DNA of 48,670 bases from a virus, in IMG/VR virus record IMGVR_UViG_3300044981_000082, positions 1-48,670 of that record. One strand, written 5' to 3'. The translations under genes and the position numbers were made by a program. Below the pieces are notes generated by a model. That model was not told the origin of the DNA and did no database searches. It was given only the letters and a program-made list of their open reading frames with translations. Shown here piece after piece: positions 14,495 to 43,237 of this stretch. Each line of letters starts with the position of its first letter. Position 1 is the first letter of the stretch.

Positions 14495-14499
14495 TTGTG

Positions 14500-26312: not shown

Positions 26313-26340
26313 AGCACGCAATGCGTGTGGGGAGATAGTG

Positions 26341-27168
26341 ATGAAACGTCTCGTTGGATTGCTTACAGCAATCGCTTTTGTACTCGTGTTTCTGATTGTA
26401 CTCGCGAATAACGCCCGTGCGACTGTGTGGACGATGCCTGCGCTGCCATCGCCTGGCAGCCAGAACAACGTCATCAATTCCAATGGTGCTGTGAACACAG
26501 GCGGGGCCACGATTATCGGTAGCGTGGCTGTGTCGGCTATCGGCACGCCATCCGCCCCGACATTCGTTGTGAACGGTACAGCAGGCTCGACCTCGATCGT
26601 GTACGCATGCACCGGTGTCGATATCAACGGCAACGCGACAATTCCTTCGGCTACAGCCACTGTGAGCACTGCCAATGCCACTCTTAGCACCACCAATAGC
26701 GTGAGCATCACGTGCCCTGGCAAGAAAGGCGCTGTGGCTTTTCTGATTCACAAAGTTGATACTTCGCATGTCTTGGGCATTTGCTACACTACTGGCGCGA
26801 CTGGTTGTACGTTCACCGACGACGGTACAATCGCCACGACCTTCACGTACACGCCGAACACTGTCGATCAAACAGGCGCTGTGTACAACGGATCGATCTC
26901 GACTGGCAATCCCGCGCTGCAAGAGAACACCCTCGGTACGCAGTTAACCACCGGCACAGCCCAGGCTCAGACTGCGTTCACCGTGACTGGCGCGACTACG
27001 AGTAATAGCTGCGTCTGCGCACTCGGTATCGCGCCGCCTGCTACTTGGCAAACTGGCATTGTACTCACCTGTGCAATGACCGCAAACACGCTCACTCCCT
27101 GGTTAACCAACGGCACCGCTGGCTCGATCACGCCCGCAGCTGAACCTATCAACTGCCGCGTACTGTAA
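26341..27168 (+). CDS. Exported Thr/Ala/Gly-rich protein with signal peptide
   Basis: The ATG at 26341 has GGAG six bases upstream, preferred over a GTG at 26338. The N-terminus MKRLVGLLTAIAFVLVFLIVLANNARATVW has a positive start, a long hydrophobic core and an A-R-A-T/V cleavage-like site. The rest is beta-rich with Thr/Ser/Ala/Gly repeats and regularly spaced Cys (VYACTG, SITCPG, GICYTTGATGCTF, SCVCALG, VLTCAM, INCRVL) that could form disulfides in the periplasm or outside. It sits between the two terminase genes, where no such export is expected. Role unknown: a host-surface or virion-surface protein. Confidence 0.72.
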   Translation: MKRLVGLLTAIAFVLVFLIVLANNARATVWTMPALPSPGSQNNVINSNGAVNTGGATIIGSVAVSAIGTPSAPTFVVNGTAGSTSIVYACTGVDINGNATIPSATATVSTANATLSTTNSVSITCPGKKGAVAFLIHKVDTSHVLGICYTTGATGCTFTDDGTIATTFTYTPNTVDQTGAVYNGSISTGNPALQENTLGTQLTTGTAQAQTAFTVTGATTSNSCVCALGIAPPATWQTGIVLTCAMTANTLTPWLTNGTAGSITPAAEPINCRVL

Positions 27169-27229
27169 CCGATTTCCGGCGGTTATCCGTGGATATCAAG
27201 TTTCGCGCCGATGCCTGGAGGGGTAACGT

Positions 27230-28810
27230 ATGAGTAAGCCTGATACTCGACGTTATCCCTCACGTCTCCCGCCTCGCTATCGCGAGTTAGCATTGGCAAG
27301 CTTGTTACCAACACCAGAGCAAGTCAAGAAGCTTTCTCTGCCTAAGCTCATCGACCTTCGCCAGCATCAATGGCGTTTGCAGGCCGAGATCGAACGCGAT
27401 CCTGCGAAGTTCTTCCATCCCAACAGTGGTGGACAAGATGAGTACATGCGTTTCGACAATCCCAATAAGCGAGGCCGGTACTTCTTTGCAGGTAACAAAA
27501 CAGGTAAAACCACCGGTACGTGCATCATCGTCGCGGAGTTCATGTGTGGCAGACAGCTCTGGGGCACGGAACCAGGCGAACGACCAGCACATGCGTATCG
27601 CCTGCCCTGTAGAGGTGTTTACTATACAGAAGACTTCGCTTCGCACGAAGAAACAATCATTCCAACGTATCTTACCTGGCTACCAAAAGGTGAGATTCTC
27701 TCCATAATTCGCTCACAGAGCGGCAATGTCTCGCACATCGTCCACAAAAACGGCAGTATCTTATACTTCCGTACTTATGACCAAGGTTATGAAAAAGCCG
27801 AGGGAAAAGACTACGACATCGCTGCCTGTGATGAGCCTCCTCCTCGGGAACTCTACACCGCAATCTTTCGTGGACTGGTTGCGCTTGGAGGCTTATTCTA
27901 CATCGCTGCAACTCTACTTAAAGAAGCATGGCTCTACGACGAGCTCGCACACGGATTTAACCAGGGCTTTCAGGGAGAAATATACGACAATCCTTGGCTC
28001 GATACAAAAGCGAGGGACGACTTTGTTGCGACCCTAGACGAGACAGAGAAAGCAGTTCGCATACATGGAAAGCCAATCTCGTTGACAGGCTTGATATACC
28101 CTGAGTTTCGAGACGCAGCCCCGACGGTTATCAAATCTATCAATCCTGAGTACCCATCTGAACTCCAGGCCGATGACGTTCCCTGGGACGTGTATCGCGA
28201 GGAGCCATACCCAATAATCATGGGTGTCGATCCTCACGAACGCAAACCTCTCCATGTGGAGTGGGCTTATGTTCTGCCAAATGATTCTGTACTCTGGTTC
28301 GATTGGGCTTTGGTTCCTTCAGGCTCATTCGACGAGGTTTTCGACTTTCTTGAGGACAAGGAAAATCATCACCGAGGCCGCACGCAGCTTACAGTTATGG
28401 ACCCAAATCGAGGTGCTGCAAAGCAGGCCGGCGACACTTGCTGGATGGATCAATTTGAGGCTCATGGTTATTCAGTATTACTGGGTAACGATGATCTTAG
28501 CATTGGCCACAGTACTACAAGAGACTATCTCAAAACCCAACGAATGCGCTGGACTGAGCGATGCCGAGGCGAGAAAGGTCCGATATACCAAATGGGGCGC
28601 TATGCGTGGGACGACTGGACGGGCAAGAAGCTTCGTGATAAGAGAGCCAGTAAGGAGTCGCCTCAGGAAAAATACAAGGACTTCCCAGATGTGCATCGAT
28701 ACGTGGCGATGGCGAATTTGACTTTTGACATGCTTAAGCACAAGAACGATGCCATTCGCGTGGCCGGTGAACGGCGCGCTGCTAGTTTCGGCAGGCCACG
28801 TGCTTATTAA
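27230..28810 (+). CDS. terL: Large terminase subunit
   Basis: The ATPase domain has Walker A GNKTGKTT at about 88-95, preceded by RYFFA, Walker B YDIAACDE at about 195-202 (with the catalytic Glu), and the coupling motif IAATLLKEAW. The nuclease domain has IIMGVDPH with the metal-binding Asp near 333, LTVMDPNRG with Asp near 391, and KDFPDVHRYVAMANL near 487. Length 526 is usual. A GGAGG precedes the start. It cuts concatemeric DNA and pumps it into the procapsid through the portal encoded downstream. Confidence 0.93.
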   Translation: MSKPDTRRYPSRLPPRYRELALASLLPTPEQVKKLSLPKLIDLRQHQWRLQAEIERDPAKFFHPNSGGQDEYMRFDNPNKRGRYFFAGNKTGKTTGTCIIVAEFMCGRQLWGTEPGERPAHAYRLPCRGVYYTEDFASHEETIIPTYLTWLPKGEILSIIRSQSGNVSHIVHKNGSILYFRTYDQGYEKAEGKDYDIAACDEPPPRELYTAIFRGLVALGGLFYIAATLLKEAWLYDELAHGFNQGFQGEIYDNPWLDTKARDDFVATLDETEKAVRIHGKPISLTGLIYPEFRDAAPTVIKSINPEYPSELQADDVPWDVYREEPYPIIMGVDPHERKPLHVEWAYVLPNDSVLWFDWALVPSGSFDEVFDFLEDKENHHRGRTQLTVMDPNRGAAKQAGDTCWMDQFEAHGYSVLLGNDDLSIGHSTTRDYLKTQRMRWTERCRGEKGPIYQMGRYAWDDWTGKKLRDKRASKESPQEKYKDFPDVHRYVAMANLTFDMLKHKNDAIRVAGERRAASFGRPRAY

Positions 28811-28820
28811 GGCTTAAATA

Positions 28821-29120
28821 ATGTTTTGGGGTAAGAAAAATAATCAGTTACTTAACGACCTAGCAAAGGCTGTACAAGCCGTAAAGGAGTTACTCATGGC
28901 AGACGCAACAACTTTCCAGGCAGATGTGGATGCGCTCAAAGCGAGTGTAGAGGCCGCGGCCACGCGAGTCATCGCAGCGATCCAGGCTGCCGGCCCGCTC
29001 ACTCAGGCTCAGCTCGACGCGGCAGATGCCGAGATCCAAGCTACTAAGACCGAGGCCGACGCGATCGCACCTGGCGCGCCTGTGGTGACCTCTGCAACTC
29101 CTGCCACGGTGAAAGCATAG
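28821..29120 (+). CDS. Small helical protein between terminase and portal (99 aa)
   Basis: After a basic N-terminus (MFWGKKNNQLL) the sequence is helical with heptad-like Leu and Ala (LAKAVQAVKELLMADATTFQADVDALKASVEAAATRVIAAIQAAG, QAQLDAADAEIQATKTEADAI) and a Pro/Thr-rich tail. Similar Ala-rich coiled coils are common between terminase and portal in phages. No enzymatic motif. Possibly a virion or scaffold accessory. Confidence 0.6.
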   Translation: MFWGKKNNQLLNDLAKAVQAVKELLMADATTFQADVDALKASVEAAATRVIAAIQAAGPLTQAQLDAADAEIQATKTEADAIAPGAPVVTSATPATVKA

Positions 29121-29124
29121 CTGC

Positions 29125-31497
29125 ATGGCCGCTGCGCCGAAACTTGATCCGTTTTTCGAGACTTTGCTGAGTAGAGGGGAAACTCTCTACTCGGTGAAGC
29201 TCTCTGAAAAAACGGAGATGCCTTTGGTTGAGAATGTCATCCGTGATATCCAGGATGCTTTCGGACAGATGCAAATCTATCGCGAAAACATGATTGAGAT
29301 GAACGAGAACTGGCGCGGGATGACAACGCCAAAGGATTTCCCGTTTGAAGACTGTGCGAACGTTCGTGTACCATTTACGAGCGTGATTGTGCAGCAAATG
29401 ATTGCTCGCTTTATGAAAGCCATCTTTGGCGGCGAGTATATTGCGGAGTTTAGTTCCCTCGACAAAGTCTACACAAAAGACGAAACAGACGACTTCAACA
29501 GATGGTTTGACTATGAGCTACGAGAGATTGTCAAGCTCAAGCCTACTACGCGAGACATCTTAGGCGAAATACTCAAGTATGGTAATGCTTTCCCAATGCC
29601 ATACTGGGACAAACGTACACAAGAACTACGCTCGTACAAACGCTTCACGATTCCCGAGGAAGGTTCAGTATCTGACTTTGTAGACCAGCAAGCCGTGATG
29701 TTGGCTAGTAGTTATCCAGGAGTAACTGTTAGCGAATCTCCCGATTATGGGGTTTACAAACTTGTAGATATTCAGAACAAGCCGGCGGGCCAGTTGCTGT
29801 TTTCCATCGTTATCATGGATGGCGTACCTGAACTCAAGTGTGAGATTCGCCGTCGTGAGACAGTGTTTGATGGTGTAGAGGTCTATGTACCTAACATTGA
29901 GGACTACGTCTTAGTACCTTCTGCTGGTACAATCGAAGAGATACCTTTCTGGGCTCTCCGTCGTTGGGTGGCGCCTGAGGATTTTCGCCAGGGCATCATC
30001 GACGGAGAGTACATTGATCTAGGCAAAGAAGAAAACGATCGAATTGCTCAATCTGCCGACGTGCGCATCGCAGATTTTGTAGCGCAGGAAGAAACCGAGC
30101 TGCAAGACTCTGAGCGTGGCACGGATCAGAAAGACAGCTCTGGCTACACGCCTCATCGTAAGTACATCGAAGTCTACAAATGGGAAGGTTGGTGGAGGCT
30201 CACAGACAAAGATGCCGGAGACATGGAGCGGTATCTTGAGCCGAAAGTTCAGTACTGTGTTCAGGTTGCCGTCCGCACGAAACGCATTATCGCCATTCAC
30301 AGGCTCGAGGATTTGAACAAAGATGGAAAGCGCAGTCCTGTACATTTTGGTTTTATCCATGAGCTTAATAGGCTGCTTGATATCGGACTCGCCGAATGGG
30401 TACGTCATGTGCAGGCTACACTCGATGCTATTGATAATCAGCGTCTCGATGCTGGTCTCATTACTAATATCCCCTGGGGTTTTTATAAGCCAAGTGCGGG
30501 CTTTAATCGCGAAGTACTGCGGGTCAAAATCGGCGAGTTTCTTCCCGTAAGTGATCCACAAGCTGTAAACATGCCTCAGTCTAATTACCAACCCATGTGG
30601 TCTTTTGAAGAAGAACGCATGGTTTGGCAATACGGCATGCAACAAGGGGGCATGAATGAAGCTTCCATCGGACAATCGATATCAAAGCGCCAGAGTGCAA
30701 GCGAGTTTGTTGGTACTGCGAGTGCTGCTGATTTGCGCACTGGTGACGCTGTTGATTATATACTCGAAAGTTTTCGTGAACTGGTTTACCGAATACTGGG
30801 ATTATATCAACAATTCGCGCCCCGTAAACGTGTCTTCCAAGTAGCAGGTGAGAATGGCCTGATGATCAACAAGGAGTTTGACATTGACAAGCTCCAAGGA
30901 CGGATCGTACTTAGGCTCACTGCTAACTTACAGCAAACCAATCAAGAGCTTCAACAAAAGATCGCGCTCGACATGCTCCAGATCCTCATGAACGGTCTGT
31001 TTATACAGACGGGTGTGGTGCAGGCCGATACGATATTTGCAGCTGCGAAGAAGCTCACGCGCGCGATGGGTTACGAAGGCGTGCCATTACATAAGCCTGA
31101 CATGCCACCTATGAGCGATTCGCCACAGGAAGAGCATCGTCAGATCGCCTTCGGCAAAGAGCCAATCGGCCCGACGCCTAATGAAAACTTCGAGGAGCAT
31201 TTACATGCTCACGCCAAGCTTGCAAGCGATCCTCGACTTGAAAAGCTGCTCTCGTCTGAAGCTCAACAAATGCTCGCCGACCACATAGCCAAGACTACTC
31301 AGATGCAGCAAGTAGTTAAGATAATGCGTACTGTTCAACAAGCGCAAGCTTTGCAATTACAAAAATCTCTAGTAGCCAAGGGTATCAATCCTGGTCAAGC
31401 AGGTGGTGGACAACCTGGCGATAATGCCGAGGCCGGTACACAAGCCGAGGGCGTTAGCCAAAGTGGAGGTGCTCCAGGTGGACAAGCCGGAATTTAA
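29125..31497 (+). CDS. Portal protein
   Basis: The 790-residue protein has the portal-like FPFEDCANVRVPFTSVIVQQMIARFMKAIFGGEYI near residue 75, GEILKYGNAFPMPYWD, and later FIHELNRLLDIGLAEWVRHVQATLDAIDNQRLDAG and GQSISKRQSASEFVGTASA, which resemble the stem and wing of large podoviral portals. The C-terminal 200 residues are helical and Gln-rich (LQQTNQELQQKIALDMLQIL; MQQVVKIMRTVQQAQALQLQKSL), as in the P22-type barrel. It forms the dodecameric ring for DNA entry and tail joining. It follows the terminase and precedes the scaffold. Confidence 0.85.
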   Translation: MAAAPKLDPFFETLLSRGETLYSVKLSEKTEMPLVENVIRDIQDAFGQMQIYRENMIEMNENWRGMTTPKDFPFEDCANVRVPFTSVIVQQMIARFMKAIFGGEYIAEFSSLDKVYTKDETDDFNRWFDYELREIVKLKPTTRDILGEILKYGNAFPMPYWDKRTQELRSYKRFTIPEEGSVSDFVDQQAVMLASSYPGVTVSESPDYGVYKLVDIQNKPAGQLLFSIVIMDGVPELKCEIRRRETVFDGVEVYVPNIEDYVLVPSAGTIEEIPFWALRRWVAPEDFRQGIIDGEYIDLGKEENDRIAQSADVRIADFVAQEETELQDSERGTDQKDSSGYTPHRKYIEVYKWEGWWRLTDKDAGDMERYLEPKVQYCVQVAVRTKRIIAIHRLEDLNKDGKRSPVHFGFIHELNRLLDIGLAEWVRHVQATLDAIDNQRLDAGLITNIPWGFYKPSAGFNREVLRVKIGEFLPVSDPQAVNMPQSNYQPMWSFEEERMVWQYGMQQGGMNEASIGQSISKRQSASEFVGTASAADLRTGDAVDYILESFRELVYRILGLYQQFAPRKRVFQVAGENGLMINKEFDIDKLQGRIVLRLTANLQQTNQELQQKIALDMLQILMNGLFIQTGVVQADTIFAAAKKLTRAMGYEGVPLHKPDMPPMSDSPQEEHRQIAFGKEPIGPTPNENFEEHLHAHAKLASDPRLEKLLSSEAQQMLADHIAKTTQMQQVVKIMRTVQQAQALQLQKSLVAKGINPGQAGGGQPGDNAEAGTQAEGVSQSGGAPGGQAGI

Positions 31498-31765
31498 GAA
31501 TTCTACTGTCTGGACAATAGTAGAAAAGGCTCTGCGTGAGTACGGCACACAGCTCGTAGCTGATATGCGTGTCGCGCTCAATGCAGGAACCGAACTCGGC
31601 AAAGAACGGGCCGTGGCTATCAACGGTTCACTTACAGCCGTTGATCAGATGCTCGCTTTACCAGAGACTCTGTTCCCGTCCGCCGAATCGTTATCCGACG
31701 ATAAGCAAGAAAATAAAGTACCTGTAAAGGAGAGAGGAAATGGAATTCGACGATTTGGCACGTAA
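31478..31765 (+). CDS. Small protein between portal and scaffold (95 aa)
   Basis: A GTG at 31478 has GGAGG eight bases upstream and gives a 20-base overlap with the portal; an ATG at 31403 would overlap it by 95 bases, so the GTG is chosen. The product has FKNSTVWTIVEKALREYGTQLVADMRVALNAGTELGKERAVA, a helical unit, then TAVDQMLALPETLF and a charged C-terminus. It overlaps the scaffold gene by 26 bases. No family recognised. Confidence 0.58.
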   Translation: MDKPEFKNSTVWTIVEKALREYGTQLVADMRVALNAGTELGKERAVAINGSLTAVDQMLALPETLFPSAESLSDDKQENKVPVKERGNGIRRFGT

Positions 31766-32738
31766 ATTTATTTGTTTCATCGACGATGGAAGCGGTGGCG
31801 AAGGTGGAGGGGCTGGAGGAGGCTCTGGCGAGGGCGGAGGTGACAGCGGTGCCGGCGATCAGGGAGGCGAAGGCGGCCAGGGCGATGGTGGAGCACCCAA
31901 AGCTGAGTCACTGACGAAAGAAGGCATCGCACTGCTTGTTAGCGAGCAGATGAAGCCATTGCATGAAAAGATTGGCGAACTCACCAGTGAGAACGTCAAC
32001 CTGCGCAACGCCATGCGTTCCGGCGCGGGAGTACCTCGCAGAGCCGAACCGGAAATTGTTAAAGAGGAACCTCCCAAGCTCCCGACCAAGGACGAGTTCC
32101 TGGCTCAGATGAATGCTGATCCTGTTACGACAATCAAGACCATCATCGAGTCAATCGTCAACCCGCAACTCGACAAGCGAATCACGGCCGCGACTTCAGG
32201 TGTGAAAGCTGAGAGCGAGGCCCGCGAAGCTTTCATGCGCGATGCCGAGGGCGATCGCACCAATGCGTTATCAGTAGCTTCTACTTACGAAGGTGATCTC
32301 CGAACCGAGTACGACAAGCTGGGCGATCAGGAGCTACGAGCTATCGCGGCTTCCCGAGGTGGGCGTTACCAGGTCGGTGATCTCGAACTCGCCGCAAATC
32401 GAGCTGAGCGCAAAATGCGCCAGGCCGGCAAGTTGCCTAACGCCAACAGTAACGGAAATGGCAGTGGCAACGGTAACAACGATACTCGCTTCTCGTTCCA
32501 ACGCAACAACCCCAAGTCAAGTTCTGGTGCTGGAGCCGGTAATGGTAATGGCAACGGGGCCGGCGCGCCAGGCGCAATCAAAACCATCGACGACCTCGTG
32601 GCTCATAACAAAATGACTAAGGACGAAGCCGAGGGCGCTCGCAAGAACAACAAGAAGTGGGGGCTCTCAGACGAGGATTTCGTGAAGAGCTACATGGAAG
32701 CCGAGAAAGACAATCCCAGGTTTGGGACAGGAGCATAG
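31740..32738 (+). CDS. Scaffold-like protein
   Basis: GGAGAGAGGAA precedes the ATG. After a short N-terminus there is a Gly/Glu/Asp-rich stretch (residues about 18-50) and then helices (LLVSEQMKPLHEKIGELTSENVNLRNAM, DEFLAQMNADPVTTIKTIIESIVNPQL), a second polar Asn/Gly/Ser linker (about 235-280), and a charged C-terminal helix-turn-helix (IDDLVAHNKMTKDEAEGARKNNKKWGLSDEDFVKSYM), the usual capsid-binding end of scaffolds. It lies between portal and capsid. It would guide capsid assembly and leave the head. Charge and layout support the call; no specific family is claimed. Confidence 0.72.
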   Translation: MEFDDLARKFICFIDDGSGGEGGGAGGGSGEGGGDSGAGDQGGEGGQGDGGAPKAESLTKEGIALLVSEQMKPLHEKIGELTSENVNLRNAMRSGAGVPRRAEPEIVKEEPPKLPTKDEFLAQMNADPVTTIKTIIESIVNPQLDKRITAATSGVKAESEAREAFMRDAEGDRTNALSVASTYEGDLRTEYDKLGDQELRAIAASRGGRYQVGDLELAANRAERKMRQAGKLPNANSNGNGSGNGNNDTRFSFQRNNPKSSSGAGAGNGNGNGAGAPGAIKTIDDLVAHNKMTKDEAEGARKNNKKWGLSDEDFVKSYMEAEKDNPRFGTGA

Positions 32739-32739
32739 C

Positions 32740-33300: not shown

Positions 33301-33331
33301 ACACCCGCGCTAAGGCGCAAGGAGAATTGCT

Positions 33332-33898: not shown

Positions 33899-33930
33899 GG
33901 CCAGCACGTAGTTCGTAGGGAGGTTGTTAC

Positions 33931-34833
33931 ATGCCTAGCCTTCGCGCACAATTCCAGCGGACGATGTTTCCTGGCATCAGGGAGTTCATCTTTCGTGGAT
34001 ACAAGGAAAAACCTCTGGAGTATTCCCAGATCTACAAGGTCATGTCTTCGGACTCGGCCTTTGAGGAAGACTACCAGGCTGCTGGCGTCGGGTTGTTTAA
34101 CCTGATACCGGAAGCAACCCTGGTCGAAGAGGACACGTTCTATCCTGGCCTCTCGATTCGATACACACATCTCGACTATGCCAAGCGGATCGGCTTCTCG
34201 CATCAGTTCATCCGCGACGGCAAGATCAACATGTGGAACGATCGCTCGCGCGACATGGGATACTCCGCAAGGCAGACGATGGAAATTCTGCTCGCGGACA
34301 TCTTGAACTCGGGCAACACCACACTCGGTTATGACAATCAGCCATTGTTCTCGGCCAATCACCCGTTGACTCGTGGCGGTGCGGGTCGTGTACAGAGCAA
34401 CATTCTCTCCACGCCGGCCACGTTGTCAGTTGTCTCGTACCGAGCCATGCTCACACAGTTCCGCAGGTTTTTCGATCCGACTGGCGTGCGCCGCATTCAG
34501 TTGAATGCAGCTACGCTGGTCGTGCCGCCGGAACTCGAGTGGAACGCAAAGGAAATCGTCAAGTCAGTCACTCGCCCAGACACTGCGAACCGCGCCGACA
34601 ACGTTTCCATGAATACCACTACGATTTTCGTGTACGATTATCTGCTTCAGCCCAAGCCCTGGTTTATCTTCGCCGACAAAGGCGACGTGAAGATCAAGGT
34701 CTACGAGCGCGAGAAGTTCAACGTGATGGAGTACGAGCGCGAAGAACAGCGCATGAACTGGGTCCAGGCCGCCATCGCGTTCTCGTTCGGCTGGAGCGAC
34801 TATATTGGAGTCGTCGGCACCTATCCTCCATGA
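33931..34833 (+). CDS. Major capsid protein
   Basis: GGGAGG lies seven bases before the start. The 300-residue protein has the N-arm and E-loop-like pattern (PLEYSQIYKVMSSDSAFEED, GVGLFNLIPEATLVEEDTF), then IRYTHLDYAKRIGFSHQFIRDG, LLADILNSGNTTLGYDNQPLFSANHP, which matches the G-x-x-L-F-S-x-x-H-P signature of Mu-type major capsid proteins, and NAATLVVPPELEWNAKEIVKS, IKVYEREKFNVMEYEREEQ. It would form the HK97-fold shell. It lies between decoration and tail-adaptor genes. Confidence 0.88.
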   Translation: MPSLRAQFQRTMFPGIREFIFRGYKEKPLEYSQIYKVMSSDSAFEEDYQAAGVGLFNLIPEATLVEEDTFYPGLSIRYTHLDYAKRIGFSHQFIRDGKINMWNDRSRDMGYSARQTMEILLADILNSGNTTLGYDNQPLFSANHPLTRGGAGRVQSNILSTPATLSVVSYRAMLTQFRRFFDPTGVRRIQLNAATLVVPPELEWNAKEIVKSVTRPDTANRADNVSMNTTTIFVYDYLLQPKPWFIFADKGDVKIKVYEREKFNVMEYEREEQRMNWVQAAIAFSFGWSDYIGVVGTYPP

Positions 34834-34874
34834 GCGAGCTGTAACACAATAACGTTCGCTAAGGAGGATTTTCG

Positions 34875-35453: not shown

Positions 35454-35463
35454 AGGTACATCT

Positions 35464-35757
35464 ATGTCTATGTTACTCATGAATGCGGGGGTAGCGAGTA
35501 GTGTATCTCCAGTTGTCGAAGCAAACTCATGCGGCAAAGATTTTGTTCACTGTCGTGTGAGTGCCACCGGCACATTTGCGGCGGATTCGGTTACTGTACA
35601 GCACTCACCCGATAGCGGTACTACCTGGTTTACACTAGGCACACTTGGCAAATCAGGCGACGAGTTCGTAGTCGAAGACCCTTTCGACTGGATTCGCGCT
35701 ATTGCAGGACCAGCGATGACAGGAGTAGCAAATGTATTTCTTGACTTTAGTGCGTAG
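35464..35757 (+). CDS. Small beta-rich protein (97 aa)
   Basis: The ATG at 35464 has GAGG seven to eight bases upstream and avoids an overlap with the gene before. The product has FVHCRVSATGTFAADSVTVQHSPDSGTTWFTLGTL and DEFVVEDPFDWIRAIAGPAMTGVANVFLDFS, like a small Ig- or carbohydrate-binding-like beta sandwich. It overlaps the next exported protein by 26 bases. Possibly a head or tail fibre element. Confidence 0.58.
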   Translation: MSMLLMNAGVASSVSPVVEANSCGKDFVHCRVSATGTFAADSVTVQHSPDSGTTWFTLGTLGKSGDEFVVEDPFDWIRAIAGPAMTGVANVFLDFSA

Positions 35758-36187
35758 AGCGAGAGCGATACTGCTTCTGTCATTAAGCGTGTTGTTGTTA
35801 TCGGGAAGTGTGTATGCCTTCCCGATAACACAAAACGTACAGCGAAGCACGCAGTACATGAGTACTACACCGATCATTAACTCACATGGCACCACGTGTA
35901 CGGGTGGCTCGTGTGCTGTGTGCGCCAGTGTTACAACAGTCGCCACGATTGTGTCTGGCAACACATCTCGAGGAATGTGGTGTTTGTACACCAGTGCATT
36001 ACTCAATGGAGCTTACGGAGGAATAAATAACTCCGCGCCTGCTATCACTCCTACAAGCGCCAACGGCATTCCTATGGGTCCGGTTAATACCTGGCTTTGT
36101 GAAGTAGGAGCGCCTGGTAATAGATTTGATGTGATACCTCAGACGGGTACGGCTAGTGTTTGTACGATAGAGTATCCGCTACAGTAG
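35732..36187 (+). CDS. Exported Cys-rich small protein with signal peptide (151 aa)
   Basis: AGGAG lies six bases before the ATG, inside the end of the preceding gene. The N-terminus YFLTLVRRARAILLLSLSVLLLSGSVYAFPITQ is a clear signal peptide with VYA cleavage. The mature protein is Thr/Ser-rich with Cys pairs (GTTCTGGSCAVCASVTT, GMWCLYTSALL, TWLCEVGAPG, ASVCTIEY). It resembles the other exported proteins at 26341 and 36189 in style. Export from a phage virion operon is unusual. Function unknown. Confidence 0.7.
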   Translation: MYFLTLVRRARAILLLSLSVLLLSGSVYAFPITQNVQRSTQYMSTTPIINSHGTTCTGGSCAVCASVTTVATIVSGNTSRGMWCLYTSALLNGAYGGINNSAPAITPTSANGIPMGPVNTWLCEVGAPGNRFDVIPQTGTASVCTIEYPLQ

Positions 36188-36188
36188 T

Positions 36189-38324
36189 TTGAAAGCAAGA
36201 ATAAAAATATTTGCGGTGGCGTTCCTCGTCCTGATGGGGTGGGCGGTCTCGCCGGCTAGTGCGCAGACTCTTATCGACGGTGAGCAGCTAAGTACACCTA
36301 GCGCGTGCAGCGGCTCAATCGTTAATAAAGGATGCGTCTGCAACGGCGCGGCTACCGCTGGCGTGTTCAATTGCTCAGTAACTTGCCCTTCGAGCGGCGC
36401 GATCAATATCTGTTCGTGCATCACCTCGGGAACCGTCACCGACACCCTTACTGAGACTACGCAGTCGGCGACCGTCAATTCACGGATGCGTATTTTGTCA
36501 GCTAGTGCGCCCGCTCAAAGTCTAGAAGAAGCTGATATTCTGAGCACAAACACAAGCAGTTATAACATTCGCTCGACAGCGGGCGTATCTACGCCGTCGC
36601 ATACCACCACGCTAGCTTGTATGACTGGTCTAACGGCAACACCATTCGACCTAGCCGGTGGACAGGTGAATTCCACGGCGAGCAATACTTGGGTCGGCGC
36701 TCCCGTTGGTAGCGTTCCTATCACGGCGATCAGTTGCGCCGCTGGAACTTGTACGGCGACGACTCTTGTAACCGAAGGCTACACGAACGGACAGAACATC
36801 ACTATCACTGGCAATTCGATCGGTGCTTGCAACGCCGCATTCAGTATCACGGCTCTCACAGGAACTACGTTTTCATTTTCGTCTGGAAGTTGCACCACGG
36901 GAACAGGTGGCGCGTCCTTTCCCACGAATACGCTACTTGCTGATGCGTCTGAATTAGGGATGGTCTGTAATTGCACCAACGGCGGGCAGACGGCTATTAG
37001 CTCTGTATTGCCGTCGTACACTATTCAAGGTAATACGGTGTCCACTCCCGCTCTTGTCCATTCTAGCGTCGTGACATCAAATAAGGGGCCAGATGGAACT
37101 AATCTACTGACCGCACCGATCACTGGAACCAACGTGGTTGTGACGGGCACAACCAGAACGAACCTATCGACGATTGCTAGTTACATTGGAACCGTGCAGC
37201 CAGTCTTTATTCCACATGGAACTCCTGCTTCGACTAATTCCACAGGAGCATCGCAAACGGGGCCGATAGCGACCGGCATTTCAGTGGGAGATTGTCTAGT
37301 CGCGTCCTGTTCTATGGATTTGACGGGCAGTACCCTATCGCTCGGTGGTGGTGGTACTGATTCATACTCATTAGTGAAGGCATGCCCTTGGGGAGGTTCC
37401 GCTGCCTATCCATCGGTCGTTTATAAAGCAGTTCATACTTCTGGGGGAACGGCCCCAACGGTGACTGCGAGCTCAGCAATAACCCCTATCCTGTGCACTA
37501 GTACGGCATGGACCGGACCATCCGGAACTACTTGTCCGGTAATTGGGACGCCAGCGTGCTCCGATAACAACGGAATCGTGAATATTGTCGGCAATGGTAC
37601 TACGGCGACAGTAACTATGGCTGGGGTGGAGAGCCTAGCGACCGGACAATTGGTGTCGATTAATAACAATTCGGTATCAGGCTTTAATGTCACGACTGGC
37701 GCGATAACGATTACGAGCATAACAACATTCACTTTCGCAAGTTCGACTAACGCGACTGGAACTGGTGGGACGGCGAGCGCTACATCAAACGTTCCGATTC
37801 TTGCACCGGGAGATGCGGGCGCTGTCGTTGGCGCACAAGTAGTGTGGTGGTTCTTCAATACATTGAACCTCACTCCCTACTTCAATCAGCAACCGCAATC
37901 GGGCGATCCGCTAGCAAGCGTGTTCAGTACTGCGGGAAGTGGGCGTTCCAGTCATTCGGCAACGTATCCGGTTACAAACACAGCGGCACTTAGCAACTAT
38001 TCTGTTACGGGTAATGCTGCTGTTGGACCGGGACAATTCACTGGCGGACAGACATTTCTATTCGGACCAGCAACGCCGACACCCACACTCACGGCAACGC
38101 CCAGCGCAACCCCAACTCTCACAGCCACCCCCTCAGCCACTCCAACGCTTACGGCGACACCGAGCACGACGCCAACAGTAAGTGCTACATTATCTGCCAC
38201 TCCAAGTACAACTCCAACCACAACAACAAGTGCAACGCCGTCACCTACACCTGCGCCTGGATCTTGTGCTCAAAGTAATCGTGGGGGAAGTTATCAGTGT
38301 TATGGAAGACCTACGATTTTTTAG
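36189..38324 (+). CDS. Large exported Thr/Pro-rich protein (711 aa)
   Basis: The best start is TTG at 36189, one base after the previous stop, giving MKARIKIFAVAFLVLMGWAVSPASAQT, a typical signal peptide with ASA cleavage; there is no clear ribosome binding site. The mature part is beta-rich, with many Cys and repeated units such as VPITAISCAAGTCTATTLVTEGYTNGQNITI and TTFSFSSGSCTTGTGG. From about residue 630 there is a Thr/Pro/Ser tract with TLTATPSATPTLTATPS units, then a short Cys-containing end. It looks like a surface adhesin or stalked fibre that is secreted. A role in the virion is uncertain because virions are assembled in the cytoplasm. Confidence 0.7.
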   Translation: MKARIKIFAVAFLVLMGWAVSPASAQTLIDGEQLSTPSACSGSIVNKGCVCNGAATAGVFNCSVTCPSSGAINICSCITSGTVTDTLTETTQSATVNSRMRILSASAPAQSLEEADILSTNTSSYNIRSTAGVSTPSHTTTLACMTGLTATPFDLAGGQVNSTASNTWVGAPVGSVPITAISCAAGTCTATTLVTEGYTNGQNITITGNSIGACNAAFSITALTGTTFSFSSGSCTTGTGGASFPTNTLLADASELGMVCNCTNGGQTAISSVLPSYTIQGNTVSTPALVHSSVVTSNKGPDGTNLLTAPITGTNVVVTGTTRTNLSTIASYIGTVQPVFIPHGTPASTNSTGASQTGPIATGISVGDCLVASCSMDLTGSTLSLGGGGTDSYSLVKACPWGGSAAYPSVVYKAVHTSGGTAPTVTASSAITPILCTSTAWTGPSGTTCPVIGTPACSDNNGIVNIVGNGTTATVTMAGVESLATGQLVSINNNSVSGFNVTTGAITITSITTFTFASSTNATGTGGTASATSNVPILAPGDAGAVVGAQVVWWFFNTLNLTPYFNQQPQSGDPLASVFSTAGSGRSSHSATYPVTNTAALSNYSVTGNAAVGPGQFTGGQTFLFGPATPTPTLTATPSATPTLTATPSATPTLTATPSTTPTVSATLSATPSTTPTTTTSATPSPTPAPGSCAQSNRGGSYQCYGRPTIF
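38082..38250 (+). repeat. Tandem Thr/Pro-coding repeats at the end of the exported protein
   Basis: The DNA repeats short units coding TATPSATPTL, imperfect at base level (for example ACGCCCAGCGCAACCCCAAC and CACCCCCTCAGCCACTCCAA). It forms a mucin-like stalk. A similar tract occurs in the gene at 41489 (about 42280-42440). Confidence 0.65.
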
Positions 38325-38336
38325 AGGAGAGTCTGC

Positions 38337-38666
38337 GTGAGTGAGAATCATGAATCTGCACAAGTTACTACATGGGAAAAAATACGCTACGCAATGGATC
38401 GTTGGGGTTTGCCGGTAGTTGCTTTAGCTGTGGTATCTACTTTGTTTTGGCGTAATATGAATAGCCAGGATGAATTCGCTCGACAGACTTTGCTTCAACA
38501 AGGCCAGGCTATTCAACTTGCAACCGAAATGCATGAAGACCATAAAAGAATCATATCAATCCAAGAAACTATGGCTACAGCTACAACAGATCAAACAAGC
38601 TTACTTGCCGAAGCTAATCGTTTATTGCAAAAGATAAATGATGAGCAACATGGAAGAGATAAATAA
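38337..38666 (+). CDS. Small membrane-anchored coiled-coil protein (possible inner-membrane spanin or similar)
   Basis: A GTG start has AGGAG about 9 bases upstream. After a short N-terminus, WGLPVVALAVVSTLFW (about 23-38) is one membrane segment, followed by a long polar helix (QTLLQQGQAIQLATEMHEDHKRIISIQETMATATTDQTSLLAEANRLLQKI). One anchor and a long periplasmic helix are the layout of i-spanins. It opens a group of four small membrane-associated or lytic genes. Function by topology only. Confidence 0.6.
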   Translation: MSENHESAQVTTWEKIRYAMDRWGLPVVALAVVSTLFWRNMNSQDEFARQTLLQQGQAIQLATEMHEDHKRIISIQETMATATTDQTSLLAEANRLLQKINDEQHGRDK

Positions 38667-39002
38667 ATGAACGGAGGAGTAGATCATAGTGTACCCTGGT
38701 GGGTACAAGCTATTGGAGTAGTAGGCGTTACTGCTGCTATAGCTTTGTATCTCGTTTATTGGGTAACAAATACGGTATCTACACAACTTACTACAATTAA
38801 TACACAAGTAACAAATAACCTTGTACAAAGTGCAGCTATTTTAAAAGCAGTACAAGATGCGGAAAACGATCCAGCAGTGATAGCTTTCCGGAAATTACAA
38901 CTGCGATTCGCTCTGCAAGAATGCATTAACAACTCTAAGTCCCCGACGCAAACTCGAGACTGTATTGATATAGGCAAAGAGGGTGGGGTACAATTTCAAT
39001 AG
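38667..39002 (+). CDS. Small membrane protein of the lysis-like cassette (111 aa)
   Basis: The ATG follows the previous stop directly. VPWWVQAIGVVGVTAAIALYLVYWVT (about 9-34) is a membrane segment. The rest is a polar helix with KAVQDAENDPAVIAFRKLQLRFALQECINN and two Cys. One membrane helix plus a soluble part is compatible with a pinholin-like protein, a spanin or an anti-holin. It overlaps the following gene's upstream region. Confidence 0.58.
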   Translation: MNGGVDHSVPWWVQAIGVVGVTAAIALYLVYWVTNTVSTQLTTINTQVTNNLVQSAAILKAVQDAENDPAVIAFRKLQLRFALQECINNSKSPTQTRDCIDIGKEGGVQFQ

Positions 39003-39012
39003 AGGGAGTAAC

Positions 39013-39192
39013 ATGGAGGAACGTATGTTTTCAGACCCTTTAAAGCTAATACCGTTGGTTGGTTTCTTAGCCGGCACTCTTGGCTTGTTCACAGGCCATC
39101 TTACAACTGACCAAGCAATGGCGGTGTTCGGAATATCTGGCATTGCGCACACAGGTATTAGTTCCGTGAATAACATTAATCCAAAGGATTAA
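39013..39192 (+). CDS. Putative holin-like small membrane protein (59 aa)
   Basis: The ATG at 39013 has GGGAG four bases upstream; an ATG at 39025 has GGAGG five bases upstream and is nearly as good. The product has DPLKLIPLVGFLAGTLGLFTGHLTTDQAMAVFGISGIAHTG, one or two hydrophobic segments, in the size range of small holins. It lies directly before the endolysin-like gene. Topology and position support a holin, but no family match is claimed. Confidence 0.55.
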   Translation: MEERMFSDPLKLIPLVGFLAGTLGLFTGHLTTDQAMAVFGISGIAHTGISSVNNINPKD

Positions 39193-39194
39193 GT

Positions 39195-39584
39195 ATGCCA
39201 GCGCCTGCAAAAACCATGCCTAGCGATGCTTTCTTTCAACTCGTTGGAGCACGTTGGAAGCTCGTTAAAGCTATTTGCATACGGGAATCTAACGGCGATT
39301 CAATGGCTGTAGGTGACAACGGAGATGCCCAAGGGCTATTTCAATTGCATGCAGCTTTTGCACAGGATTACGTAATACCTGCGGGTAGCGCTGTTATGGT
39401 TATCCTTCGTGGTGTGCCTTTTGTGAGCATTAACATCATGTCTAAATTCATCGCACTCTGTGGATCTGCCATGAAAGATACTGACGTACTCGGTAATTTT
39501 CATGACGGACACAAAGGGTGGACAGAGCGTGGAGACAAAGATTCTTACGTAAAGGATGTAATGGCAATTTTAGCCAAACTATAA
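39195..39584 (+). CDS. Lytic transglycosylase-like endolysin
   Basis: AAGGA precedes the ATG. AICIRESNGDSMAVGDNGDAQGLFQLHAAFAQDY is the Slt-type lytic transglycosylase signature: the catalytic Glu at about 31 in E-S-x-G, and the G-x-x-Q-x-x-G-L-F-Q-L-H region. At 129 residues it is a compact domain with no signal peptide or SAR anchor, so it would need a holin to reach the cell wall, which fits the small membrane proteins upstream. It cuts peptidoglycan between MurNAc and GlcNAc at lysis. Confidence 0.8.
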   Translation: MPAPAKTMPSDAFFQLVGARWKLVKAICIRESNGDSMAVGDNGDAQGLFQLHAAFAQDYVIPAGSAVMVILRGVPFVSINIMSKFIALCGSAMKDTDVLGNFHDGHKGWTERGDKDSYVKDVMAILAKL

Positions 39585-39600
39585 CAGAAGGAGTGCGAGA

Positions 39601-39876
39601 ATGAAAAAACGAATGGTTGGGATCGTAATCGCGGCTACACTCTTTATCGGATGTAGCTCCACACAACAGGCGCAATTCCAGGCTCAGCTGCAAACTGTGG
39701 TGAAGAATCTTACCGCAGAGCAGTGTGCCAATCCCGTGGCTACTGTGGCGAATATACCGGCGGGATTCCTTACGCCTGCACAGATGGCGCAGTTGGGCAA
39801 TTTGCTGTGTGCAGGTGCGTTCGGTACGCAGGCAGCGCCGACCACTGCGCCCGGCATGAATCCGGTGCTTAAATAG
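39601..39876 (+). CDS. Small lipoprotein
   Basis: AAGGAG lies nine bases before the ATG. MKKRMVGIVIAATLFIGCSST is a lipoprotein signal peptide with a lipobox ending in Cys 18. The mature part is Gln/Ala/Thr-rich (QQAQFQAQLQTVVKNLTAEQCANPVATVANIP) with a hydrophobic Gly/Leu stretch and a Thr/Pro end (APTTAPGMNP). Its place after the endolysin suggests an outer-membrane spanin subunit, although o-spanins are usually shorter and more Pro-rich. An alternative is a superinfection-exclusion lipoprotein. Confidence 0.65.
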   Translation: MKKRMVGIVIAATLFIGCSSTQQAQFQAQLQTVVKNLTAEQCANPVATVANIPAGFLTPAQMAQLGNLLCAGAFGTQAAPTTAPGMNPVLK

Positions 39877-39911
39877 AGTACTAAATAACTCTCAATAGAA
39901 GGAGACAGGAT

Positions 39912-40358
39912 ATGAGTTCAGGAGCACCAATAACGAGTAGCGCCTCAGGCGCTGAAGGCGGCGCCAGCGGGTCGAACACTGGTTTGACCGAAGCCCAGCT
40001 GCAGGCAATCACTGCGGCAATCGCAGCGGGCGTACAGACTGGTGTGAGCCAGGCCATGAGCCAGGCAAGCCAGGAAATCGCCAAGCAAGTTGCGGAGAGT
40101 ATCTCCGGCGCGACAGATAGCGATAGTGGCTATCTCGTGCGCACGTCAATCGATCCAGGCGACAGTCAACGACGAGCCGAGAACCATCGCAATCGCGTCG
40201 AGGCATACTGCGAACAAGCTCTCGCCGATTGTATCGAATTTCGCAAGGCCTGCGACTCGTTGATCCTGCGCAAGATTTCCCAGGACAGCGATCACCATGC
40301 CGGCCTGCCGCCGATGGCACCGCGCGCAGCCAGCGGCCCTGGAGTCACCGCGTCGTAA
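39912..40358 (+). CDS. Hypothetical protein, 148 aa
   Basis: AAGGAG precedes the ATG. The N-terminus is Ser/Ala/Gly-rich, then a helix (LTEAQLQAITAAIAAGVQTGVSQAMSQASQEIAKQVAESI), and a second helical part with two Cys (NHRNRVEAYCEQALADCIEFRKACDSLILRKI). No signal peptide. It lies between the lysis genes and the phosphatase-like gene. Function unknown. Confidence 0.55.
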   Translation: MSSGAPITSSASGAEGGASGSNTGLTEAQLQAITAAIAAGVQTGVSQAMSQASQEIAKQVAESISGATDSDSGYLVRTSIDPGDSQRRAENHRNRVEAYCEQALADCIEFRKACDSLILRKISQDSDHHAGLPPMAPRAASGPGVTAS

Positions 40359-40369
40359 GTAAGGGAGCT

Positions 40370-40399
40370 GTGGTGCTGGGTGCGTATCTCCAGCACCAC
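40370..40399 (+). promoter_or_regulatory. Perfect 10-bp hairpin over the start region of the phosphatase-like gene
   Basis: GTGGTGCTGG (40370-40379) pairs exactly with CCAGCACCAC (40390-40399) around a 10-base loop. It begins after a GGGAG motif (40363-40367) and contains two GTG codons in frame with the phosphatase-like gene. It could block a GTG start or end transcription weakly. Confidence 0.6.
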
Positions 40400-40408
40400 A
40401 CAAATAAC

Positions 40409-40873
40409 ATGCTAAAAATGACATTTAATAGAATTGCAAAGCGTGTATTCATAGGTGGCGGGCCTATGGATGCTAATGATATACAATCACTAATCTCTGC
40501 AGGTATTGTAGCTGTTGTTGATTGTAGAGAGCTAGATGATAATCAGCTCGTTGCAGGTGCTGAACGTAGCGAGATCGAGATCTTGCATAATCCAACAGCT
40601 GACGATGGTACACCAAAGCCTGCAAGCTGGTTCGAGGCCGGTTATAATTTTGCGCATTTAATCCTGCAAAACAAAGACGGGGCCGCGTATTTTCATTGTG
40701 ACGCAGGACGAAATCGTGGTCCAAGTATGGGTTATTATTTCATGCGTCGCGAGTACGGTCTATTCGGTGACGATGTGAAGCACATCATGCACGTCCACAG
40801 GCCTATCACCGATGTTGGTGGTATCAGATACGCTGACGATGCCGACGCCGCGTTGAGACTTATCGCGGGATAA
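40409..40873 (+). CDS. Dual-specificity-phosphatase-like protein
   Basis: The protein has FHCDAGRNRGPSM, the H-C-x5-R-(G/S) phosphate loop with Cys near 97 and Arg near 103, after a strand (KDGAAYFHC), and VVDCRELDD and NPTADDGTPKP, which match the fold and the general-acid loop of dual-specificity phosphatases. It lacks a signal peptide. The ATG at 40409 is used here but has no ribosome binding site; a GTG at 40373 in the same frame follows GGGAG by five bases and lies inside the hairpin at 40370-40399. Such phosphatases are rare in phages. Possible targets are host phosphoproteins, nucleotides or RNA 5' ends. Confidence 0.72.
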   Translation: MLKMTFNRIAKRVFIGGGPMDANDIQSLISAGIVAVVDCRELDDNQLVAGAERSEIEILHNPTADDGTPKPASWFEAGYNFAHLILQNKDGAAYFHCDAGRNRGPSMGYYFMRREYGLFGDDVKHIMHVHRPITDVGGIRYADDADAALRLIAG

Positions 40874-40892
40874 CCGTTTCGGGAGTTCTACT

Positions 40893-41489
40893 GTGGCTTT
40901 AGTAGATGATAGCCCTCTTCAAGAAAACAACGTAATAAACGATTGGATTGCGGGTAATTCGCGCATCTTCAATCGTACTTACGTATTCACAGACGAAGAA
41001 GCTGCAGATTCTATCGCAGCGGCGTTTCTAACAATAAAATTGAACCCAAATGATTTAGATGCAAATGCTTTACTTCAAGTCAAGATCACGCAAATACTTA
41101 CAGTAAACGGTGTCGTGACTCCTCCAGGTACGATGGAGTTTGCAATCTTCGCAAGCCAGTACAACGCACAAGTAAACGCAGGCACGACTTACTATTATGA
41201 TATTACAATTATCACAGCGGCTGGTTACACGTACACGGCTGAAACAGGTACAATTTTCTTTCAACAGGGCGTGACACAAGCAGATGCGGCCGGCACTCCT
41301 AGTGCACAACCTGATCAAGGCATACCTATTTTTAGAGGTTATGCTGCTCAACCACCCACGACAGGCGGCCCATATAACTTAGGAGATACATTTAACAACA
41401 ATAATCCTGTAGTCGGCGGGCCTAGCGGATGGATATGTACAGCCGCGGGCACTCCTGGAACTTGGAGCGTGATTAGTAATATAGTTTGA
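40893..41489 (+). CDS. Tail fibre-like beta protein (198 aa)
   Basis: A GTG start has GGGAG seven bases upstream. The product is beta-rich (AAFLTIKLNPNDLDANALLQVKITQILTVNGVV, TYYYDITIITAAGYTYTAETGTIFF) and ends with YNLGDTFNNNNPVVGGPSGWICTAAGTPGTWSVI, a Y-x2-G-D...G-W-x-C-x2-A-G-x-P-G-x-W motif common at the ends of phage fibres and tailspikes. It lies just before the exported protein at 41489 and the nozzle. Likely a tail or head fibre. Confidence 0.65.
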   Translation: MALVDDSPLQENNVINDWIAGNSRIFNRTYVFTDEEAADSIAAAFLTIKLNPNDLDANALLQVKITQILTVNGVVTPPGTMEFAIFASQYNAQVNAGTTYYYDITIITAAGYTYTAETGTIFFQQGVTQADAAGTPSAQPDQGIPIFRGYAAQPPTTGGPYNLGDTFNNNNPVVGGPSGWICTAAGTPGTWSVISNIV

Positions 41490-43237
41490 TGGCACGTAAG
41501 ATAGAAATAATAATCATCGTACTCTTTACGTTGCTAGGCTTGTCTATAGCAACAGCTCTAGCTGTTGCTGTACATGTTAGAGATGGTGCAGTAAGCGAAG
41601 ATGGTGCTAACTGCCCAACATCTGGTACGAGTTCTTTTACGAATACTTATACCGATACAATAGGCAACGAGATTCATATTATAGTTCAAGGTCAAGGAAC
41701 CACTGTCAATCCTACTTGTTCCACAATAACGGATAACAAAGGCGATACTTTTTTCAACATGTTTCCTGGAGGTTTTAGTGGTTCGCTAACTACTGATTTC
41801 ACTATTAATCAACTCTTTATCGCTCGCAACGTAGCTGGTGGTGCTACAACTTTTACGTGTACTTATGCTAATAGTGGGGCAGGTGGACAATGCGATATAA
41901 CTATGAGTGTTATGGAATGGTCAAATACTGGAACAGGAAATCCTACTTTAGATACTAATGGTTCAAACGGCAATTCCTATACTTCAAATACTACAAATTT
42001 AACCACAGGTACAGGTGGTACATTAACAAGAACAGATGATTACGCCGTAGCCATATTTGGATTATTCACATCAGGTACACTAGCAACTGGTCCTACGGGT
42101 GGATACACCGTATCCACTGGAGTTAATGGACAACTAATACCAGCGTGGAACGCAACGGTAGGGACTGTGGCTCCAGTATGCTCTCTAACTACAAATTCTA
42201 CTGTTAGAGGACATGCGGCATACGCAGCTATATTACTTGGTCCAACATCCAGTACTACGCCTACGATATCGCCTACAGTAACTGTTACAGCAACAGCTAC
42301 ACTTACGCCAACAGCTACAGCTACACTCACAGCTACCCCTTCGGCTACTATGACTGGCCCGACACCTTCGCCTACGCCTAGTATCACAGCCACTATTAGT
42401 ACTACACCAACTGCTACACCTACGGCTATGTCAACTCCAGGCCGTGGATTTGGCAGTTGTTACGTTAACTCGCCGCCAGGAGTAATGTTGAATGATGTAG
42501 TCATAGGCGAGGTTACATACGATAGTTTCTTTGGTAGCTATGTACTTACTCCACCAGACTCTTCATGGCATCAGTTTGCTAACTGGGATTTAAACCTTGC
42601 TGATGTTACATGGTATTACCATGATGCTACAGCAAGCGAACCACCGATTTATTTGTGGAGTTTGAGTACAGATGTATCTATCGTTTGTGGTATTTTTAGT
42701 CAACGAGGGAATCCAACCCCCAGTAGCCCACTTGATGTTATAGGTATTCCACAAAATCATTGTGGATCTCCTTCTACATGTACAGCGCTAAGCATTACTC
42801 CAACACTGCCGAATGACATAATTGGATTTGGTGGAGGAAAGTTTACTATTGGTTTAATACTAGGACCAAATAACTCTGGCCTTGGATCGACTACCTCGTG
42901 GGTGCCTGGGTTTTTCGAGGGTGCAGATTTCGATAACATGGGCGAGGCCGGTTATTATTTACCCTCTATGTGTAGAAGTGCAGGACCAACAGGAAATGTG
43001 ACTAACACTGTGACAGCCGTTGCAGAAGCTTCGGAGTTTATGTTTGCTCTTAAAGCTGCGGCAACTACATGTCCGAGTCCAACGGCGAGTGCAACTTCGA
43101 CGGGGTCTCCAGGCACGCCAACTATTACACCTACTCCGCGAGCGACACCGACTACTAAGTGCTCGTGTACTCCAACTCAAACTATTCAATGGTTTACTCC
43201 AACTCTCTCAGCTACTCCGAGTGCGACGCCTACTTAG
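41489..43237 (+). CDS. Exported Thr/Pro-rich protein with signal anchor (582 aa)
   Basis: The ATG shares bases with the previous stop (TGATG). KIEIIIIVLFTLLGLSIATALAVAVHV is a signal peptide or anchor. The mature part has a beta domain (residues about 30-255), then a TATPTL-type tract (about 265-315, TATATLTPTATATLTATPS), another beta domain with Cys (about 320-520), and a Pro/Thr C-terminal tail (TPTLSATPSATPT). The plan resembles the exported protein at 36189. Two folded units held by Thr/Pro stalks are typical of cell-surface adhesins. Its role in a phage is unexplained. Confidence 0.7.
   Translation: MARKIEIIIIVLFTLLGLSIATALAVAVHVRDGAVSEDGANCPTSGTSSFTNTYTDTIGNEIHIIVQGQGTTVNPTCSTITDNKGDTFFNMFPGGFSGSLTTDFTINQLFIARNVAGGATTFTCTYANSGAGGQCDITMSVMEWSNTGTGNPTLDTNGSNGNSYTSNTTNLTTGTGGTLTRTDDYAVAIFGLFTSGTLATGPTGGYTVSTGVNGQLIPAWNATVGTVAPVCSLTTNSTVRGHAAYAAILLGPTSSTTPTISPTVTVTATATLTPTATATLTATPSATMTGPTPSPTPSITATISTTPTATPTAMSTPGRGFGSCYVNSPPGVMLNDVVIGEVTYDSFFGSYVLTPPDSSWHQFANWDLNLADVTWYYHDATASEPPIYLWSLSTDVSIVCGIFSQRGNPTPSSPLDVIGIPQNHCGSPSTCTALSITPTLPNDIIGFGGGKFTIGLILGPNNSGLGSTTSWVPGFFEGADFDNMGEAGYYLPSMCRSAGPTGNVTNTVTAVAEASEFMFALKAAATTCPSPTASATSTGSPGTPTITPTPRATPTTKCSCTPTQTIQWFTPTLSATPSATPT

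Follow-up and report, generated by a model that had tools for sequence, protein, structure and literature searches.

Late operon of the window

The window analysed here spans an entire viral record (48,670 bases), for which neither near-identical phages nor close relatives were found in INPHARED. In its late operon the terminase small subunit (TerS, 25845) is followed by exported protein 1, the large subunit (TerL, 27230), portal, a scaffold-like protein and capsid (33931), and then by small virion genes, exported proteins 2 and 3, a lysis cassette, gene 40893, exported protein 4, nozzle, adaptor and further late proteins. "Exported" stands throughout for a protein with a predicted Sec-type signal sequence. 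The features and their evidence are:

25845..26312, + strand: terminase small subunit (PHROG 2538, 1.7e-9)
26338..27168, + strand: exported protein 1 (ORF; signal test; same-slot homologue in L015)
26341-26421, + strand: predicted Sec signal of exported protein 1 (signal test)
27230..28810, + strand: terminase large subunit (tblastn to annotated terminases; A1 relatives)
33931..34833, + strand: major capsid protein (position and conservation; A3 alignment of 11 sequences, 48-81% identity to the window)
35732..36187, + strand: exported protein 2 (ORF; signal test; comparison with L028)
35732-35818, + strand: predicted Sec signal of exported protein 2 (signal test)
36189..38324, + strand: exported protein 3 (ORF; Cys count; signal test; internal repeat)
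36189-36263, + strand: predicted Sec signal of exported protein 3 (signal test)
38064..38258, + strand: Thr/Pro stalk of exported protein 3, TATPSATP repeats (sequence)
38337..39584, + strand: lysis cassette of two or three membrane proteins and an SLT-type lysozyme at 39195 (Pfam SLT 4.4e-4, below cut-off)
39601..39876, + strand: small lipoprotein-type, spanin-like protein MKKRMVGIVIAATLFIGC in the lysis cassette (sequence)
40893..41489, + strand: non-exported partner, fibre-tip/adaptor-like (PHROG 23059 tail fiber, 2.5e-6; homologues)
41486..43237, + strand: exported protein 4 (ORF; Cys count; signal test; architecture shared with L028)
41489-41563, + strand: signal or signal anchor of exported protein 4 (signal test)
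42236..42439, + strand: first Thr/Pro stalk of exported protein 4 (sequence)
43049..43234, + strand: second, C-terminal Thr/Pro stalk of exported protein 4 (sequence)
43238..46012, + strand: nozzle-like tail protein (homologues near exported genes in G001, G003 and G004)
46017..46820, + strand: head-tail adaptor (Pfam SU10_adaptor 1.2e-6; homologues)

The window's terminase shows about 24% identity to its nearest cultured counterparts. With 39601, which does not belong to the Thr-rich exported set, the lysis cassette spans 38337-39876. Exported protein 1 separates TerS from TerL, 35732 and 36189 follow the capsid gene with its small neighbours, and 41489 directly precedes the nozzle gene, in agreement with the arrangement described in a first-pass annotation of this DNA.

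Some other genes of the window deserve mention. Between the lysis genes and 40893, positions 40229-40873 encode a protein resembling dual-specificity phosphatases (below the Pfam cut-off). Positions 4993-6342 encode an ATP-grasp protein resembling PurD (weak GARS matches, below cut-off); in G004 and G007 a similar protein directly follows the exported spike. The minus strand encodes a ParB N-domain fused to a DNA N4/N6 methyltransferase (10574-12001) and, in the early region, a RuvB-like helicase and a VWA-domain protein (19734-20708 and 21178-21816); VWA-like counterparts were recognised by eye in G001, G003, G004 and L019.

Signal sequences of the four proteins

The exported proteins are encoded by ORFs of 275 aa (GTG 26338/ATG 26341-27168), 151 aa (35732-36187), 711 aa (TTG 36189-38324) and 582 aa (TTG 41486/ATG 41489-43237). 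Clear Shine-Dalgarno sequences precede 26341 (ggggaga) and 35732 (aggag), and the start of 41489 overlaps the stop codon of 40893. The best cleavage sites fall between MKRLVGLLTAIAFVLVFLIVLANNARA and TVW in 26341, MYFLTLVRRARAILLLSLSVLLLSGSVYA and FPI in 35732, MKARIKIFAVAFLVLMGWAVSPASA and QTL in 36189, and MARKIEIIIIVLFTLLGLSIATALA and VAV in 41489.

Signals were scored by a rule-based test and not by SignalP; it comprises a charged n-region, an uncharged hydrophobic core with a mean Kyte-Doolittle value of at least 2.0, and an AXA-type site behind the core. The control set consisted of the window ORFs of at least 90 aa, with the lipoprotein-type gene 39601 set aside. All four genes for which Sec-type signals had been claimed at first reading passed, compared to 0 of 47 other ORFs and 0 of 233 internal Met positions. 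The signal of 41489 is the weakest; its hydrophobic stretch is long and its n-region contains a Glu, so that it fails under stricter rules and could be either a signal or a signal anchor. A lipobox Cys follows the signal in none of the four, and within the window is found only in 39601, outside the set. Judged from sequence, Sec-type export of the four window proteins is well supported.

Composition of the mature parts

The several cysteines noted earlier in each mature part number 8, 6, 22 and 13, corresponding to 2.3-4.9% compared to 0.38% in 13 signal-less virion genes of the window. Exported protein 1 is rich in Thr, Ser, Ala and Gly and looks FN3/fibre-like by eye; its homologue in L015, located in the same slot upstream of TerL, shows 51% identity over 66 aa. 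Exported protein 2 has a small, decoration-like mature domain, and its counterpart (L028:7421-7825, likeness of the domain judged by eye) carries a signal, too. Exported protein 3 consists of a Cys-rich N-terminal part, two copies of a fibre-type beta domain (internal repeat score 98 vs a shuffle maximum of 81), a Thr/Pro stalk and a Cys-containing tail. In exported protein 4 a beta domain is followed by a stalk, a Cys-containing domain and a second stalk, an architecture shared at 35% identity by L028:8822-9934. The presence of TATPSATP stalks in two of the proteins, 36189 and 41489, was thereby confirmed.

Signal prediction and a structure and domain search of the mature parts, both suggested by the first-pass annotation, gave a divided result: the signals stood up in the rule-based test, and the four proteins had no family match in PHROG, Pfam, NCBIfam or PADLOC. 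The 41489 domain had no PDB sequence match, and tblastn searches of phage records with three window proteins gave none either. Fold models were poor. That of a domain from one window protein reached a pLDDT of 40 with the N-terminal helix alone confident, and that of the A6 family, found in relatives, reached 60 with Foldseek matches to generic beta-sandwiches including some phage tail proteins; neither was used as fold evidence. By slot, architecture and kinship to proteins of relatives, the chances are about even that the four are of fibre/spike or decoration type.

Exported late proteins in related viral genomes

Scans of viral contigs with the single capsid or nozzle protein of the window returned nothing, but alignment-based scans of IMG/VR found about 25 relatives, which are uncultured, metagenomic viruses of bacteria from the environment. 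Of these, G001, G003, G004, G007 and G008, contigs of 46-50 kb, were read from end to end; together with the window they form the six near-complete genomes compared below, bearing in mind that IMG/VR contigs are possibly incomplete. The relatives have terminase, capsid, adaptor and nozzle genes in common with the window, adaptor and nozzle homologues being present in most. A terminase alignment run against 84,980 genomes in search of a host yielded only two distant phage contigs, without such exported proteins in the stretch covered.

All six genomes encode exported late proteins at matching slots. These comprise the gap between the two terminase genes or that separating TerL from portal, the stretch following the capsid gene, the neighbourhood of the adaptor, and the flank of the nozzle or of a 40893-type gene. 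Most shorter relatives covering these slots have signals there as well. The curated list contains four exported proteins in the window, six in G001, nine in G003, four in G004, one in G007 and seven in G008. A strict version of the signal test was passed by 25 of 167 late-strand ORFs, a few of which are lipoproteins or membrane proteins, compared to 2 of 129 on the opposite strand. The median Cys content was 2.8% in 31 exported proteins and 0.37% in 134 other late ORFs (Mann-Whitney p 2e-13, a nominal value as the sequences are related), an enrichment expected for proteins folding outside the cytoplasm. Conservation of the predicted Sec export across this phage group is well supported.

Homology between the exported proteins of different genomes is patchy; the slots persist with changing content, a usual pattern among adhesins. 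Some elements recur. A family with a signal (A6) lies directly behind the adaptor in five genomes, and a 40893-type gene directly followed by an exported spike is kept in the window, L028, G004 and G007. In the window (40893/41489/43238) and in relatives, exported genes have their place beside adaptor, nozzle or fibre-partner genes of the late operon. For one exported pair the mature domain, with a dN of about 0.36 and a dS of about 2.7, appears to be under purifying selection; the letters of its signal have diverged with hydrophobicity kept.

Otherwise different exported proteins of G001, G003 and L020 have in common a C-terminal domain, some 65 aa long and containing four invariant cysteines, which is carried by the following ORFs:

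L011:11432-11971, four-Cys domain
L011:11922-13355, four-Cys domain
L011:14842-17055, four-Cys domain
L023:1344-2375, four-Cys domain
L020:11503-12000, four-Cys domain

The domain was not found in phage records; a search of 297 genomes of one phylum did not find it either, a negative that shows little. Three large exported proteins just before nozzle genes (G001, G003 and L009) end in MPYYF or MPYFW. Both the four-Cys domain and the MPYYF tail could be docking modules or sorting signals.

Two further genes were observed near exported ones. L009:14140-15291, directly behind an island of proteins with Thr/Pro stalks and followed by an HSP20-like ORF (below cut-off), encodes a 383-aa polytopic membrane protein that resembles GT-C glycosyltransferases by eye and has no Pfam match; a role as modifier of the Thr stalks is possible. 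Within the exported set of G003, L011:14140-14835 encodes a spermidine-synthase-like protein (Pfam 2.3e-8) with a signal sequence.

Fibre and spike domains in the relatives

In G008, L042:5992-7413 lies between adaptor and nozzle and combines a signal, a QGRPIP beta domain and the tail-fibre hallmark sequences GSMWIDRTHYTAYIATAVNTGNAEWL and VTNSSQSISGSKRFTG, recognised by eye with weak Pfam matches. In G004, the minus-strand gene L052:7254-10154 between TerL and portal encodes a signal, Thr/Pro stalks, a pectate-lyase-type domain (PF12708, 2.6e-5, just below cut-off) and fibre repeats; this spike also matches PHROG 2234, "tail spike protein" (9.7e-4). G007 has a Cys-rich spike with almost no Thr/Pro stalk, beta-helix-like by eye and without a family match, directly behind the 40893 homologue. 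In the contig as read it is the only exported late protein besides one likely membrane protein, and it is the main candidate for receptor binding. LamG lectin domains were detected in G001 (2.5e-8 and 7.5e-13). The domain content supports the prediction that exported late proteins of the relatives include recognisable tail fibres and tailspikes.

Comparison with cultured phages

The exported spike of G004 matches the spike domain of Shewanella phage vB_Sb_QDWS with 33% identity over 260 aa. The full QDWS ORF of 687 aa (L056:5245-7308, i.e. OK094664.1 14004-16067, minus strand) opens with a Sec signal, behind which lie fibre repeats, but only 14004-15260 is annotated and a gene on the opposite strand has been called over its 5' part. 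Such trimming of starts may hide signals elsewhere, too. This ORF in turn matches gp48 of Burkholderia phage Bcep43 and gp49 of Bcep781 (Naesvirus), for which the depositors noted "possible tail fiber; possible signal peptide domain".

In likeness to the exported set described here, Bcep43 gp48 and Bcep781 gp49 have a Sec-type signal (MKKNKHVLFGVLLTACGLPAFA, predicted cleavage before Q) directly ahead of a tail-fibre and pectate-lyase-like spike, and they are encoded by a late gene adjoining a baseplate gene. In contrast to that set, they lack Thr/Pro stalks. They have no detectable homology to the window proteins, and both phages are myophages for which a single such protein is noted, next to additional fibre genes. 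Similarly, the QDWS spike (OK094664.1 14007-16067) has a signal (MIKKILLTALLVPAMALA, predicted cleavage before QT), fibre repeats and a spike, but belongs to a myophage with baseplate J, a further tail fibre and one such protein in the stretch read. P22 gp9, T7 gp17 and the fibres of tf resemble the exported proteins in their late-gene place and expected receptor-binding role, and the beta-helix or fibre content of the relatives adds to this likeness; they differ in being built in the cytoplasm without a Sec signal, and no fibre or spike of these podophage controls passed the signal test. T5 Llp, TP-J34 Ltp and P22 SieA are phage lipoprotein or membrane exclusion factors. They, too, are phage proteins sent to the envelope, but they are small, lipidated or polytopic, are encoded outside the tail genes, contain no fibre domains, and their models had no match here.

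A literature search found no paper on Sec-exported tail fibres, and the signal-bearing fibres of QDWS and the Bcep phages were met only in annotation notes or unannotated. Crassvirus virions carry disulfides, and signal peptides are not mentioned there (PMC10172136).

Possible role and assembly of the exported proteins

On the premise that virion proteins assemble in the cytoplasm, the first-pass annotation had concluded from the signals that the four proteins are non-virion products that remodel the host surface or are secreted. Export itself is well supported, the signals being present and conserved. The step to a non-virion product is not secure, because genes of the same operon in relatives, with like signals and cysteines, encode recognisable fibres and tailspikes, because the signal-bearing spike of G007 is the main receptor-binding candidate of that contig, and because two cultured lineages have signal-bearing tail fibres. 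Our best reading, at roughly even confidence, is that the phage makes the four as Sec pre-proteins, members of a set that serves in receptor binding (fibres or spikes) and decoration; we infer their attachment to the virion. Late in infection they would be translocated by Sec and their signals removed. Folding would follow in the oxidising periplasm, with rigidity conferred by disulfides and perhaps by glycosylated Thr stalks, and at or after lysis the proteins would meet the particles built in the cytoplasm and dock there, either via the small non-exported partner of the 40893 family or via a shared C-terminal module (the four-Cys domain or the MPYYF tail). P22 tailspikes can join finished heads outside cells, in vitro.

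The main rival, a serious one that we hold to be less likely, is that the exported proteins act apart from the virion as soluble or surface-held adhesins, lectins or depolymerases. They might, for instance, block receptors to prevent superinfection, stop progeny from sticking to debris, loosen the polysaccharide of the host or build a matrix. This reading is in keeping with the Cys enrichment, explains the signals equally well, and explains the large number of exported proteins better than virion attachment does, the nine of G003 exceeding the usual need of a tail. Also in its favour are the lectin- or enzyme-like domains in the set (LamG, and the signal-bearing spermidine-synthase fold of G003) and the further tail fibres of Bcep781 (gp31) and QDWS. 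Against virion attachment speak these further fibres, the spermidine-synthase-like protein, for which a virion role is a poor fit, and fibre candidates without a signal (40893, and in G007 a beta-helix protein behind the capsid gene, L048:11351-12286), as do the lack of a family match and the poor fold models of the four window proteins themselves. Free products would account less well for the location of the exported genes amid tail genes and beside a virion-type partner, for the virion-type fibre repeats in L042 and G004, and for the export of the sole or main spike of G007. Known exclusion or defence models are unmatched, and the idea of exclusion or defence found no PADLOC match for the four window proteins. 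As a genome can encode up to nine exported proteins, host-surface remodelling, decoy activity or matrix formation is a plausible role for some of them; part of the set may remain free, and a mixture of virion-attached and free exports within one genome is quite possible.

It is improbable that the N-terminal segments stay uncleaved, either as signal anchors tethering fibre precursors to the membrane or as assembly helices buried in the virion. The features that weaken the 41489 signal would fit this, as would segments lying farther from the start in some relatives (G004:32352, L030:3313), but most are short n-h-c signals that end in AXA and are followed at once by Thr/Pro- or Cys-rich sequence. 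In L029, L030 and G004 an AFA/AFT-type site just before a TATATS stalk is kept with the rest of the signal unrelated, and the Cys enrichment implies an oxidising compartment. That the hydrophobic N-termini result from chance or wrong starts is hardly credible. Three of the four starts are TTG or GTG or ambiguous between two codons, but signals recur in the same slots of the six genomes and of most shorter relatives covering them, and a mature part seems to be under purifying selection. For the set as a whole this explanation was rejected by the controls in the window and in the six genomes; single starts could still shift.

Significance

Assembly of tailed phages is taught as wholly cytoplasmic. 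We propose, tentatively and short of even confidence, that this group of tailed phages assembles in two compartments and builds its receptor-binding appendages outside the cytoplasm, as Sec-exported, disulfide-bonded and Thr/Pro-stalked, possibly glycosylated proteins that are added at or after lysis. With a clade whose adhesins systematically carry Sec signals and many cysteines, the site of fibre assembly becomes accessible to tests, for which Bcep781 and QDWS are cultured proxies. If fibres are assembled outside the cytoplasm, the phages would have disulfide bonding and glycosylation at their disposal, and fibres left free may also affect cells nearby. If the exports are free products instead, phages would secrete a large repertoire of adhesins and depolymerases that has been overlooked. 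In both cases such proteins can escape notice where annotation trims starts, as happened with QDWS. The sequences suggest that some viruses may finish building their grip on the host outside the cell interior.
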